Positions 40,988 to 47,676 are shown, counted from the first letter of the stretch. The stretch: DNA of 64,000 nucleotides from Salinisphaera sp. Q1T1-3 (GCF_003602005.1 NZ_QZWD01000006.1:124001-188000), one strand, 5' to 3'. Notes: a model not told the origin generated them from the sequence alone. Translations and numbers: made by a program.

Positions 40988-41347
40988 TCAGCCCTGCACC
41001 ACTTCCACCGGGCCGTGGTCGTCGCAATGATCCCCGTGCGGGTGGTGCAGATGCCCATCCACCAGATAGTCGACGTGGTCGCCGTGCGGCACCGGTTCGT
41101 GTCCACAACCCGGGCCGTGGACATGCCCGTCGTCGTGGCCGTTGCAGGCATGGCCCTGGGTGCAGTCGGCGGGATTCCTGTCCGTGACTTCAATGACGTG
41201 CTCGTCGACGTGGTCCCCGTGCGGATGATGCAGGTGCCCGTCGTGCAGATAGTCGACGTGACCATCGTGTTTGATCGCGGTATGGCCGCAATCCGGGCCG
41301 TGTTCGTGGGGGTGGTTGCCGTGCTGGGTGGCGTCGCAGTCGGTCAT
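40988..41347 (-). CDS. Histidine-rich metal-binding protein with internal duplication
   Basis: 119 aa, about one quarter His, with many Asp/Gly and scattered Cys; no signal peptide seen. Two tandem units are obvious: HDGHVDYLHDGHLHHPHGDH followed by VDEH, and HGDHVDYLVDGHLHHPHGDH followed by CDDH. Such sequences bind Zn(II), Ni(II) or Cu(II) and may store or buffer metal. It starts 1 bp after the ArsR-family stop codon, so the two are co-translated, and metal-dependent control is likely. The ATG at 41347 is chosen. Confidence 0.85.
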   Translation of the reverse strand: MTDCDATQHGNHPHEHGPDCGHTAIKHDGHVDYLHDGHLHHPHGDHVDEHVIEVTDRNPADCTQGHACNGHDDGHVHGPGCGHEPVPHGDHVDYLVDGHLHHPHGDHCDDHGPVEVVQG

Positions 41348-41348
41348 G

Positions 41349-41675
41349 TCATGACTCCCGGGATGTGAATCCTTGATGTTCCTCGGCGTGTTCCAGTGCA
41401 TTGGCAATCAGCTGGAACACATGATCGTCGGCTATGGAATAGACGGCCGACTGGCCCTCGCGCCGGCGCGAAACGAGGCGTGCCTGGCGCAGCACCTTCA
41501 GGCGTGCCGACACGGTCCCGATACGCTCCTCGCTGGCCTCGGCCAGACGCGTCACCGAACTGGCACCGTGGGCCAGCTGTGTCAGTGTCCGCAGGCGTGC
41601 CGGGTCAGCCAGCGCGTGGAAGATCGCGGCGGCTTCCATGAGTTGGGGCTCGTCGTAGTCCTGTTGCATATCCAT
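41349..41675 (-). CDS. ArsR/SmtB-family metalloregulator
   Basis: 108 aa winged-helix repressor (AAIFHALADPARLRTLTQLA, then SVTRLAEASEERIGTVSARL, KVLRQARLVSRRREGQSAVY). The helix after the wing has DDHVFQLIANALEHAEEHQ, with a DxHxx...HxxH arrangement like the alpha-5 zinc site of SmtB/CzrA. Derepression by zinc or a similar metal is therefore likely. ATG at 41675; the palindrome at 41681 lies just upstream. First gene of the pair with the His-rich protein. Confidence 0.92.
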   Translation of the reverse strand: MDMQQDYDEPQLMEAAAIFHALADPARLRTLTQLAHGASSVTRLAEASEERIGTVSARLKVLRQARLVSRRREGQSAVYSIADDHVFQLIANALEHAEEHQGFTSRES

Positions 41676-41680
41676 CTTTT

Positions 41681-41692
41681 GTTCTAAAGAAC
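41681..41692. promoter_or_regulatory. Palindromic operator candidate for ArsR/SmtB
   Basis: GTTCT-AA-AGAAC, a perfect dyad 5 bp upstream of the ArsR-family start in an AT-rich promoter region. Position suggests autoregulation by blocking transcription or translation start. Confidence 0.5.
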
Positions 41693-41911
41693 GATAGAAT
41701 GATTGAGTTTTAGAGTCAAGGCGACGGAGAGGCGTTCTACCCAATCGTTCCGGGCAATGCGTTTTCGCCGGTGTCGTTGGTTCCCGGTGATGCCGGTTCG
41801 ATGGCGCGTCCGCATTCGGCGGGCAACCGGCAGGCGGTCGGGGCGGCCGCGCCGCTGGACGGGCTCGACCGGCGGCAGCCTCGCCCCATGGTGCCGGCTG
41901 TCGGCCCGGGT

Positions 41912-43042
41912 TCAATCCCAGTCGGCGGGTTTACCCATGTCATTGGACGGCAGTGCCGATCCGAACCGGAACTGCACCGGGCGCTCGGCCGGGGTCAGGC
42001 ATTCGATAGCAAATCGACGCAGCCGAGACTCGAGATCGGTCGGCGCGTGGCCGTCGATGGTCACCACGAAGGCTTTCAGGCGACCATCGTCGCCAAGTCG
42101 TACCGCGGCTTCCGAGACGCCGTCGTGCGCGGCGAGCAGACCGGCGATGTGCGTTGGATAGACATTGATGCCGCCGACCTGAACGGCATGATCATGGCGC
42201 CCGTCGAGCGCGATTCGACGGGTGTCGATGGCTCGGATCCGGTCGGGCAATGCGACGAGCTGGCCGTCGCGATCGCGTAGCGATAGCCCATCGTCGTGTT
42301 GCGCGAGCTGCCAGCGCGGCAACAGCGCATAGCCGGCCTGCGGCACGTCACGAAGGCCGACGGCGCTGGTTTCCGATGTGCCGTAGACATCGACGAGCCG
42401 GGACAGGCCGCTGGCGAGCAGGGTCTGGCCGACGTTCGAATCCAGTGGGCCGCCTGAGTTGATACCGATGACGCCGTTCGGCCAGTCGCGACGAAAGCGA
42501 GACAGGGCGGCCCAGTGTTCGGGTACTCCCACGATGAGATCGTCGGGACGCAGCTCGGGCAGGGCCGTGATCTGCCCGTCGATGACCGGCACATCGAGCG
42601 CGACCGGCAATAGTGCGGTCCAGACCAGACCGTAGAGATGATCGGCCGGGACGAGCGCGATGATGCGCCCGGCGGTTGTAAAGTGCTGGGCCAGCGTTTC
42701 GGCTTCCGCCCACAGTTCGGCCACGGCATGGGAATGGCGTTGCGGGGCGCCGGTCGAGCCCGATGTGTGCACGGTGAGTCGTTCGACGGGCGTCCGGTCG
42801 AGTCCTTCGGCCCAATCGTCGAGACTGTCCGCGGCGTTGATATCGAACACGATATCGCTCAGCTCGAACATTTCGCCGAGCGCGGCGGCCACGCCCATCC
42901 GCTCGAGCGAGTCCAGTGGCGCGTCCACTGGCCTGTCGTCCGGTCTCTCCGCGGGCTGGCCGCGCAATCGCTGGATTTCTCGTTGCATCACGGCGGCCGT
43001 GATCCGGCGGATCGCGGTATGCGGTAGCGCGCGAACGGTCAT
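41912..43042 (-). CDS. pcl: p-Coumaroyl-CoA-ligase-like AMP-forming enzyme (PYP chromophore activation)
   Basis: 376 aa member of the ANL (acyl-CoA synthetase) superfamily, shorter than the usual 500-550 aa. Motifs: the P-loop TVHTSGSTGAPQRHSH, ALVPADHLYGLVWTALLP, A5 VYGTSETSAVG, the hinge region HDHAVQVGGINVYP and a terminal catalytic Lys in NDMGKPADW, so it is complete. Short ligases of this type (pCL) make p-coumaroyl-CoA for photoactive yellow protein in Halorhodospira and Rhodobacter. It is the third gene of the PYP operon, starting 1 bp after the diguanylate cyclase stop, which makes this role much more likely than fatty-acid activation. No tyrosine ammonia-lyase gene is seen in the window. 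Confidence 0.82.
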   Translation of the reverse strand: MTVRALPHTAIRRITAAVMQREIQRLRGQPAERPDDRPVDAPLDSLERMGVAAALGEMFELSDIVFDINAADSLDDWAEGLDRTPVERLTVHTSGSTGAPQRHSHAVAELWAEAETLAQHFTTAGRIIALVPADHLYGLVWTALLPVALDVPVIDGQITALPELRPDDLIVGVPEHWAALSRFRRDWPNGVIGINSGGPLDSNVGQTLLASGLSRLVDVYGTSETSAVGLRDVPQAGYALLPRWQLAQHDDGLSLRDRDGQLVALPDRIRAIDTRRIALDGRHDHAVQVGGINVYPTHIAGLLAAHDGVSEAAVRLGDDGRLKAFVVTIDGHAPTDLESRLRRFAIECLTPAERPVQFRFGSALPSNDMGKPADWD

Positions 43043-43043
43043 G

Positions 43044-44321
43044 TCAGGAGGCCACGACCCGGTCGCGTCCGCCATGCTTGGCCTCGTAAAGCCGGCGGTC
43101 GGCAATCGCGATGAGATCATCGCTCGACCCGTCCGTCTCGCCCATCTCGGCACAGCCAAAACTGGCGGTGACCGCGATTCGGGCACCGGGTACAGCAACG
43201 GTCATGCCGGCGATGCGCTGGCGCAGCGTTTCTGCCATCTCGGTGGTTTCGGTCAATGAACAGTCCGGGACCAGCAGCGCGAATTCCTCACCGCCCAGAC
43301 GCGCGAACACGCCGCGTTCCGGCGCATGTTCGAGGCCGAGCCGCGCAACGCGCTTGAGCACGGCATCGCCGGTCGGATGGCCGTGGGCGTCGTTCAGCGC
43401 CTTGAAGTCGTCCAGATCGAGAATGATCAACGACATCGGCCGGCCTTGCGACGTGCATCGGACGCGTTCGCGCTCCAGCGTCTTCTGGAACTGCATGCGG
43501 TTGGTTGCGCCGGTCAGGTAGTCGCGCGTGAGAAGCTCGACCAGATCGTCGGGCTTTCCGCCGGGTTTCGGCACGTCGCGCAGGACGAGCGAAAACGCGC
43601 GGTCGTCCTCGTCTTCTGCCTCGGCTCGGGCGACGAGCAGGCGTTGGCACCAGTAGCGCTGGCCGTCGGCGCGTGTCTCCCATCCTTCGAACAGATGCCA
43701 GCCGTTGCGTGTCGCCAGCGCGAGCTGGTCGGTGATGGAAAGCGGCGTCTGCCCCATGCTCTGGGCGCGTGACAGGATGGCTTCCACCGAGCCGCCGATG
43801 ACATCGGCGGCCTCGTAGCCGGTCTGACGCGTAAACGAGGTGTTGGCCGCCAGTACGATACCGTTGAGATCGACGGTGAGCAGGGCATGATCGTTGATCT
43901 CGTCGATCAGGGCCGAGAACCACGTATCGGCCTGTCGCAGCCGATACTCCTGAGACACCTGTGCGCTGATGTCGCTGAGCGTGGCGATCAGCTGATTCGG
44001 CGCGCGCTTGACCAGCGTGCAGGACAGCACCCGAGGGTCGCCGCCGACGTTTCGGCGTCCCAGATCCACGAAAATGCGGTGCCCGTCGCAGATCGTGCCG
44101 AAATCCGCCGCGAAGCCTTCGACGAAATTACGCAGTTCCGGCGCATGTTTCTCGGTGGCGAGAAAAAAATTCTCGACCCCGTCGGCGCCGGCCAGCGGCA
44201 ACAGATGCTTCATCGCATTCGGGTTGATCATCCCGATGTGGCCCGTCTCATCGAGCTCGATGAGCCCGAACGGGCAGGCATACATGAAGCCGAGAAGTTC
44301 GTTATCGTCCGATATGGCCAT
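43044..44321 (-). CDS. PAS-PAS-GGDEF diguanylate cyclase, PYP operon
   Basis: 425 aa soluble protein. The N-terminal PAS (about 8-120: ACPFGLIELDETGHIGMINP) is itself distantly PYP-like but has no Cys at the chromophore position. A second PAS follows (about 130-250: LLTVDLNGIVLAANTSFTRQ), then GGDEF (about 265-425) with DYLTGATNRMQF, LDDFKALNDAHGHPTGD and the active-site ARLGGEEFALLVP. GGEEF is intact; an RxxD inhibitory site is not evident. It should make c-di-GMP from GTP. Encoded 13 bp after the PYP gene and 1 bp before the ligase gene, it is the probable output of the light sensor. Confidence 0.92.
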   Translation of the reverse strand: MAISDDNELLGFMYACPFGLIELDETGHIGMINPNAMKHLLPLAGADGVENFFLATEKHAPELRNFVEGFAADFGTICDGHRIFVDLGRRNVGGDPRVLSCTLVKRAPNQLIATLSDISAQVSQEYRLRQADTWFSALIDEINDHALLTVDLNGIVLAANTSFTRQTGYEAADVIGGSVEAILSRAQSMGQTPLSITDQLALATRNGWHLFEGWETRADGQRYWCQRLLVARAEAEDEDDRAFSLVLRDVPKPGGKPDDLVELLTRDYLTGATNRMQFQKTLERERVRCTSQGRPMSLIILDLDDFKALNDAHGHPTGDAVLKRVARLGLEHAPERGVFARLGGEEFALLVPDCSLTETTEMAETLRQRIAGMTVAVPGARIAVTASFGCAEMGETDGSSDDLIAIADRRLYEAKHGGRDRVVAS

Positions 44322-44334
44322 GCCTGGTGGCAGG

Positions 44335-44706
44335 TCAGCGCTCGACGAGAACGTAGCGGCGCGCCACGTCGCGGGATTGCAGCAGGCGCAGCCGGACCCG
44401 GGTCGGGCGCATCCGCAGCGTCAGCACGAACGGCACGATCTCGTCCAGATCGGGTTCGTCCTCGAAACGCTGGGCGACCATGAAATTGTTCATGCATTGA
44501 CCGATCGTGGAGAAGAATGGCGCATCGATTACAAGGGCCGGATCGATGCCGGACAGTCGTTGTTCGGCCGCGTTGTAGACGTCGGCACGCGTATCCGGCC
44601 GCAGGCCGATGACGCCGAAATCGAGGGCATCGCAGGCCTCGTGCGTCATCTGTTCCAGCTCGATCAACTGAACGGTCTCGAAAGTCGGTTGCGAAGCGGC
44701 GCTCAT
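44335..44706 (-). CDS. pyp: Photoactive yellow protein (PYP), blue-light receptor
   Basis: 123 aa PAS-fold protein. Aligned with Halorhodospira halophila PYP it keeps, at a constant offset of +2, Tyr44 (Tyr42), Glu48 (Glu46, in DVYNAAE) and Cys71 (Cys69, in STIGQCMNN), the residues that hydrogen-bond and covalently bind p-coumaric acid; Ser52 replaces Thr50 and Ile54 replaces Arg52. Other shared stretches are LDFGVIGL, GxDPxxVIxxxFF and the Met99 region RMRPTRVRLRL (Met100 in PYP). Length and fold match the single-domain PYPs. It is the first gene of a three-gene operon with a diguanylate cyclase and a coumaroyl-CoA-ligase-like enzyme, which fits chromophore supply and signalling. The promoter should lie in 44707-44799. 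Confidence 0.92.
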   Translation of the reverse strand: MSAASQPTFETVQLIELEQMTHEACDALDFGVIGLRPDTRADVYNAAEQRLSGIDPALVIDAPFFSTIGQCMNNFMVAQRFEDEPDLDEIVPFVLTLRMRPTRVRLRLLQSRDVARRYVLVER

Positions 44707-47350: not shown

Positions 47351-47676
47351 CCGCCATATCGGCACCTCGTCGCTGCGGTAACCGCGCGGTTTCGGATCGC
47401 GAGCCGATGGCGCTCGGTCATCGCCGTGATTATCGTGTCGAGCAGCCGGTTGGCGATCAGACTCTCGATAAGATCGGGCGTGACCAGACCGCCCTTGCGT
47501 CCGCGCTCGGGCGTTGCGCCCGGCTTGATAAATCGACGAACCATCGACCATCGGTCGTATGGGTTCGGATTGACGTTGTCGTGAGTCCGGAGACGCCGAG
47601 TATGTCGATGATTTGAAAGCCTGTATCCAGCATCGAAGCTGGCGCCGCGTCAGGCGTGATTCGATGGCAATGCGCG
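47351..47676. other. Intergenic region without recognisable gene
   Basis: About 325 bp between the GDPD and GGDEF genes. Short frames on the minus strand lack family likeness. No A/B repeat. Confidence 0.35.

Follow-up and report, generated by a model that had tools for sequence, protein, structure and literature searches.

The photoactive yellow protein (PYP) family is defined by three residues in a conserved spacing, Cys69, Tyr42 and Glu46 in the numbering of the H. halophila protein (PMC9664959), and in H. halophila the photoreceptor is encoded together with its own 4-coumarate ligase and a tyrosine ammonia-lyase (TAL) in a pyp-pcl-tal operon. A published count of pyp operons gives 29 of 113 with GGDEF and 42 with a PYP-type 4-coumarate ligase (pCL) (PMC12826048). 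The link with GGDEF proteins has been described, mostly in Burkholderiales, for clade C of the family, for which a role in coupling light to cyclic di-GMP (c-di-GMP) has already been proposed; this clade is marked by the loss of Phe92, Phe96 and Trp119 and the retention of Met100, and none of its members has been biochemically characterised (PMC9664959). Here, we analyze a 64,000-nt stretch of the genome of Salinisphaera sp. Q1T1-3 (GCF_003602005.1 NZ_QZWD01000006.1:124001-188000; hereafter the window), in which three contiguous genes at 41912-44706 encode a clade C PYP, a diguanylate cyclase (DGC) and a pCL. Sequence comparison indicates that this ligase begins with an acyl carrier protein (ACP) domain, and we somewhat favor the view that the three genes constitute a blue-light input module for c-di-GMP whose pigment is loaded through the ligase's own ACP arm.

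The locus resembles a number of described systems and departs from each of them. As in the published clade C loci (PMC9664959), a single-domain PYP that has lost Phe92, Phe96 and Trp119 but kept Met100 is followed by a PAS-GGDEF cyclase, and the PYP is 51% identical to the clade C protein of Caballeronia SBC1; the present locus differs from these in that it is part of a Salinisphaera/alphaproteobacterial subclade, whose PYP has Gln at position 68 and whose DGC has no RxxD site, and in that the ligase gene lies within the same transcription unit. With the H. halophila operon it shares a PYP and its own ligase in one operon, but a cyclase gene lies between the two and TAL is missing from both operon and genome. 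In the pyp-pcl-tal-pyp-GGDEF operon of Indioceanicola profundi, the clade C PYP likewise adjoins the same DGC family and the ligase, from the same clade as that of the window, has the Asp-Ser carrier domain, but this operon additionally encodes an ammonia-lyase and a further PYP, of a clade A-like type. On this plasmid (L057, 3337-8482) the two PYPs of different clades, with one shared pCL and one ammonia-lyase, are followed by the cyclase. Ppd of Thermochromatium tepidum (PYP-phytochrome-GGDEF-EAL) also links a PYP to c-di-GMP enzymes, but as a single fused protein with a phytochrome, whereas the window has separate genes and no phytochrome. Since both the clade C PYP-GGDEF link and the occurrence of GGDEF and pCL in pyp operons are published, the PYP-DGC-pCL unit as such belongs to a known type. 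What is new, beyond a first-pass annotation of the window, is that the ligase contains an ACP domain and that no ammonia-lyase is found anywhere in the genome.

The Ligase and Its N-Terminal Carrier Domain

The pCL gene (41912-43042, on the minus strand like all the features of the unit; start codon ATG at 43042) encodes 376 residues. Its best NCBIfam model is TIGR02372 (266.3 bits), the next model scoring 54, about 200 bits lower, and in our tree the pCLs, including the ligases of pyp operons, make up a single clade (100/99); both results uphold the earlier identification of a PYP-type ligase 1 bp after the cyclase. The short AMP-forming adenylation (ANL) core (41912-42778) matches Pfam AMP-binding_C and, in an alignment of 17 relatives, displays the P-loop TSGSTG (93-98), YGTSET, GRxDxAVQVGG and a catalytic Lys371.

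The approximately 88 residues ahead of this core differ from the N-terminus of an ordinary ligase. We compiled a profile of 19 pCL N-termini, among them sequences from TAL-containing operons and one above the TIGR02372 cut-off. When it was searched against the PDB, nearly all of the best 60 matches listed were ACPs (best E 8.5e-6), whose DSL serine lines up with that of the pCLs; Pfam PP-binding matches 6 of the 19 N-termini (best 0.0033), and a few are also matched by NCBIfam ACP models. The profile searches of the PDB and of Pfam used a first, 19-row alignment in which several rows were without some insert residues, but the Asp-Ser result is the same in it and in a re-alignment of the exact sequences: in 24 exact and diverse pCL N-termini, Asp44 and Ser45 (window numbering) are the sole fully invariant columns. 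Even without the core, the N-termini match TIGR02372 (as low as 5.5e-21), so the domain is part of the family that this model was built to describe. Isolated from the rest of the protein, the window's domain is predicted to consist of helices, with a predicted local distance difference test score (pLDDT) of 80. From these comparisons we conclude that the first ~88 residues (42779-43042) form an ACP domain, with Ser45 of the LDSL motif (codon 42908-42910) as the predicted site of phosphopantetheine attachment. The ACP profile matches and the invariant Asp-Ser lead us to reject the view that this pCL is an ordinary coenzyme A (CoA) ligase with an unremarkable N-terminus. In the open-access literature searched, PYP is not linked with an acyl carrier or a phosphopantetheine on its ligase. 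The TSGSTG P-loop and the Asp-Ser motif are both missing from a diverged pCL-like protein (G436; L048, 1351-2643), as though the two functions had disappeared jointly.

In related genomes, the ligases nearest to pCL are those of aryl-polyene-type clusters. TIGR02372 is the nearest model to those examined, which it matches over the core and not over the N-terminus, and the pCL N-terminal profile finds a free ACP gene beside the aryl-polyene-type ligase in 16 of 26 loci. An enzyme of this type, ApeH, adenylates 4-hydroxybenzoate and loads it onto an ACP without a CoA-thioester (PMC8253772). It shares with the pCL of the window a core nearest to TIGR02372, an ACP partner recognized by the same profile and a phenolic acid substrate; it differs in that its ACP is a separate gene, its substrate is 4-hydroxybenzoate, its product enters polyene synthesis and no PYP is involved. 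In the tree the other acyl-CoA ligases split from the pCLs and aryl-polyene ligases at 93/84, and a sister relationship of pCL to the ApeH-type ligases is only moderately supported. A simple reading of this analogy is that in pCL an ApeH-like ligase and its carrier could have become one protein.

The Photoreceptor and the Cyclase

The three reading frames and the gaps of 13 bp (PYP-DGC) and 1 bp (DGC-pCL) reported by the first-pass annotation were all reproduced. The PYP gene (44335-44706) encodes 123 residues, of which Tyr44, Glu48 and Cys71 align, without a gap as far as Cys71, to Tyr42, Glu46 and Cys69 of H. halophila PYP; this spacing had been recognized before, and the three residues prove to be invariant in 14 relatives, together with the stretch CMNNFM.AQRFEDE that begins at Cys71 (predicted chromophore attachment codon 44494-44496). 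The sole NCBIfam match of the protein is TIGR02373 (photo_yellow; 3.8e-13, 49.6 bits), the best 33 matches of a PDB sequence search are all PYP or PYP-derived, and the same holds for the top 38 PDB fold matches of its AlphaFold model (pLDDT 88), which come ahead of the first other PAS domain. A generic PAS domain that resembles PYP by chance is ruled out by these searches, which place the protein with PYP and with no other PAS family, as the comparison proposed at the time of annotation required.

In H. halophila numbering, the protein keeps Tyr42, Glu46, Cys69 and Met100 (here Met99) and changes Thr50 to Ser, Arg52 to Ile, Ala67 to Gly, Pro68 to Gln, Phe92 to Val, Phe96 to Leu and Trp119 to Tyr. 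The first two substitutions (Ser52 and Ile54) had been singled out earlier; the residues are as stated, but they are unremarkable because both positions vary across the family (PMC12826048). More unusual in the pocket are Gly69, Gln70, Leu95 and Tyr118, for Ala67, Pro68, Phe96 and Trp119, the first two being changes of the subclade to which the window's PYP belongs. With Val91, Leu95 and Tyr118 at the three lost positions and Met99 at the retained one, the sequence assigns the protein to the published clade C. Clade C PYPs are labeled "phosphonate transporter" in the plasmid records NZ_CP049159 (L052, 8621-8989), NZ_CP048421 (L056, 2321-2683) and NZ_CP071131 (L060, 6138-6527), a misleading label by which they are hidden from searches.

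The DGC (43044-44321, 425 residues) consists of a weakly PAS-like region (residues 1-127), a PAS domain (146-250), the only one recognized (PAS_9, 31.8 bits), and a GGEEF domain (266-421; PF00990, 127.5 bits). Its active-site motif RLGGEEF is intact, in agreement with the first-pass annotation, and GGEEF is intact in every complete DGC compared. The RxxD site of product inhibition, an optional feature of such cyclases, is absent from the DGC of the window and of its subclade but is kept in those of Lichenicoccus, Caballeronia, Rhizobium, Methylobacterium, Indioceanicola and Polymorphobacter.

Of 14 named relatives, 13, from Salinisphaera, Sphingomonas, Devosia and Rhodobacteraceae, have PYP, DGC and pCL side by side in this order; the remaining one, Lichenicoccus, has PYP-DGC. 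Plasmid records of Rhizobium, Methylobacterium and Sphingomonas insulae show the complete order, and those of Caballeronia, Indioceanicola and Polymorphobacter have PYP-DGC with the ligase absent or elsewhere. The sole locus where a clade C PYP has no adjacent DGC is a Comamonadaceae plasmid (L059); in all the others examined the DGC directly follows, also at those loci whose pCL is missing or lies apart (L045, L058, L052, L057, L060). The pairwise identities of the three proteins are correlated over 21 loci (r 0.93-0.95), which fits joint inheritance, although a shared species history gives the same result.

A consensus scan revealed no convincing promoter or terminator for the three-gene unit. 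Its neighbors, an ArsR-like regulator (41349-41837), a Nudix hydrolase, a multicopper oxidase, transporters and a further GGDEF protein at 47656, have no evident link with it. Next to the ArsR-like regulator, a 139-residue His/Asp-rich protein (40988-41407, minus strand) without a Pfam match looks like a protein of metal handling.

Source of the Chromophore

The family PF00221 covers the tyrosine, phenylalanine and histidine ammonia-lyases, and it has no match in the window genome, which is 99.97% complete; a TAL elsewhere in this genome, one of the two sources of coumarate originally envisaged, is thereby discarded, and the other, supply from outside, becomes the probable one. The initial description of the locus as a "complete" light-to-c-di-GMP unit was for the same reason too strong. 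Without PF00221 enzymes the genome lacks the usual route to p-coumarate, so the chromophore must come from outside, as is probably the case, or be made by another route. Among 16 different genomes that have the unit, 14 are without the family, the exceptions being Devosia, with one member, and Lichenicoccus, with two, one of them beside a separate pCL. A loss of ammonia-lyase tied to the module within Salinisphaera is unsupported, as all 14 genomes of the genus are without PF00221. Uptake of coumarate by some PYP bacteria has been suggested before (PMC12826048).

The window genome also encodes a protein of the tannase/feruloyl-esterase family (G000:C57:19539-20885; 340 bits), through which hydroxycinnamates might be obtained from plant material; that it could open access to plant phenolics is only a hint. 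In a related Salinisphaera (G007), whose genome likewise has no ammonia-lyase, there is an additional, clade A-like PYP that has a pCL of its own, again with an Asp-Ser carrier domain (L062, 4774-6394).

Discussion

The presence of an ACP domain with an invariant Asp-Ser, together with the free ACPs that accompany ApeH-type ligases, leads us to propose that the ligase loads coumarate on its own carrier arm. We infer the following route, and with it the ligand, the sign of the light regulation and a physical contact of PYP with DGC. With no ammonia-lyase in its genome, the cell would draw p-coumarate, or a closely similar hydroxycinnamate, from its environment, and the pCL would adenylate it. 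The acyl group would pass to the phosphopantetheine arm on Ser45 of the N-terminal ACP, not to free CoA, and from there to Cys71 of PYP by transthioesterification. PYP is known to take various thioesters in this manner, thiophenyl esters for example (PMC6273459), which makes an ACP thioester a chemically plausible donor. Light would then isomerize the chromophore and PYP would alter the activity of the DGC, probably via the N-terminal PAS-like region, with which we would guess it to be in contact; c-di-GMP would thus follow blue light. The coupling of light to c-di-GMP is a reasonable inference. The further claim, that pCL, known for over 20 years as the coumaroyl-CoA ligase of PYP, is a self-loading carrier-protein ligase that delivers the chromophore without free CoA, so that with scavenged coumarate the cyclase would respond to blue light only in the presence of a plant-type phenolic, we hold more tentatively, at slightly less than an even chance.

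Several observations weigh against this proposal. As regards substrates, the pCL misses the equivalog cut-off of TIGR02372 (266.3 against 334.7 bits), and we therefore do not assert coumarate specificity; coumarate as the likely substrate is suggested by membership in the pCL clade. The PYP similarly misses the curated cut-off of TIGR02373 (49.6 against 143 bits), a shortfall that is compatible with membership in the family because this model recovers just ~20% of PYP homologs (PMC9664959). Residues 1-127 of the DGC are conserved but give weak PAS matches, which allow no firm assignment. As regards the carrier, the window's ACP domain alone has no Pfam match, and its fold matches, nearly all of them to carrier proteins and with a probability of up to 0.97, are not significant (E at least 0.18). 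No phosphopantetheinyl transferase was recognized in the window genome by PF01648, PF17837 or TIGR00516, and the last of these models (acpS) has no match in any of 14 Salinisphaera genomes, that of the window and 13 others. Fatty-acid synthesis requires such a transferase, so it is probably the search and not the biology that is at fault. Finally, PMC12826048 and PMC6273459 describe the H. halophila pCL as an enzyme that makes the CoA ester.

This last point is the basis of the strongest competing explanation, to which we give a lower but still substantial probability: that pCL makes free p-coumaroyl-CoA, which acylates PYP, and that the ACP-like domain is a structural relic or a substrate-binding cap, all else being as proposed. 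The same papers call the H. halophila enzyme a coumaroyl-CoA ligase and report holo-PYP by co-expression (PMC12826048 citing Kyndt 2003; PMC6273459), and since PYP accepts such simple thioesters as thiophenyl esters (PMC6273459) a carrier is not strictly needed. But a relic would not be expected to keep Asp-Ser as the sole invariant pair in 24 diverse sequences, and the diverged homologue without a P-loop is without the serine motif as well. Moreover, the ApeH-type ligases, which are the nearest among those compared, load an ACP directly (PMC8253772) and adjoin a free one. The activation of coumarate as its CoA ester, taken for granted in the first-pass annotation, is in our opinion doubtful, the N-terminal domain pointing instead to the enzyme's own arm.

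Our proposed module could also fail at its two ends, in its ligand or in its output. Were PYP to bind, through a thioester, some other phenolic that the cell makes itself (from chorismate, for instance), the sensor would be self-sufficient and perhaps differently colored; the lack of an ammonia-lyase, the subclade's pocket changes Pro68 to Gln and Ala67 to Gly and the use of 4-hydroxybenzoate by the related ApeH ligases (PMC8253772) could all be read in this way. We consider it improbable, given that the Tyr42/Glu46 pocket is kept and that the window's ligase falls in one clade with the pCLs of TAL-containing pyp operons; 4-hydroxybenzoate, furthermore, has no double bond to isomerize. An output other than the cyclase appears rather less improbable but is still unlikely. 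In that event PYP and DGC would be co-transcribed while PYP acted on another target or on gene expression, the DGC being constitutive or sensing through its own PAS domains. The DGC does have such a domain, a PYP-DGC interaction is not known for clade C, and the Comamonadaceae relative has its PYP without an adjacent DGC; yet in all other loci examined a clade C PYP is followed by the same DGC family, and in Idiomarina a PYP affects biofilm and a GGDEF partner has been proposed (PMC9664959, PMC12826048).

The compact, contiguous three-gene version of this system occurs in culturable genera (Salinisphaera, Sphingomonas) and could yield biochemical data both on clade C and on signaling from PYP to c-di-GMP. 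The absence of an ammonia-lyase turns the supply of pigment into a testable claim, namely that light sensing in this organism depends on an external phenolic. If the ACP domain is functional, heterologous production of holo-PYP would depend on a phosphopantetheinyl transferase, and the accepted view of how a textbook photoreceptor acquires its chromophore, via free coumaroyl-CoA, would need revision.

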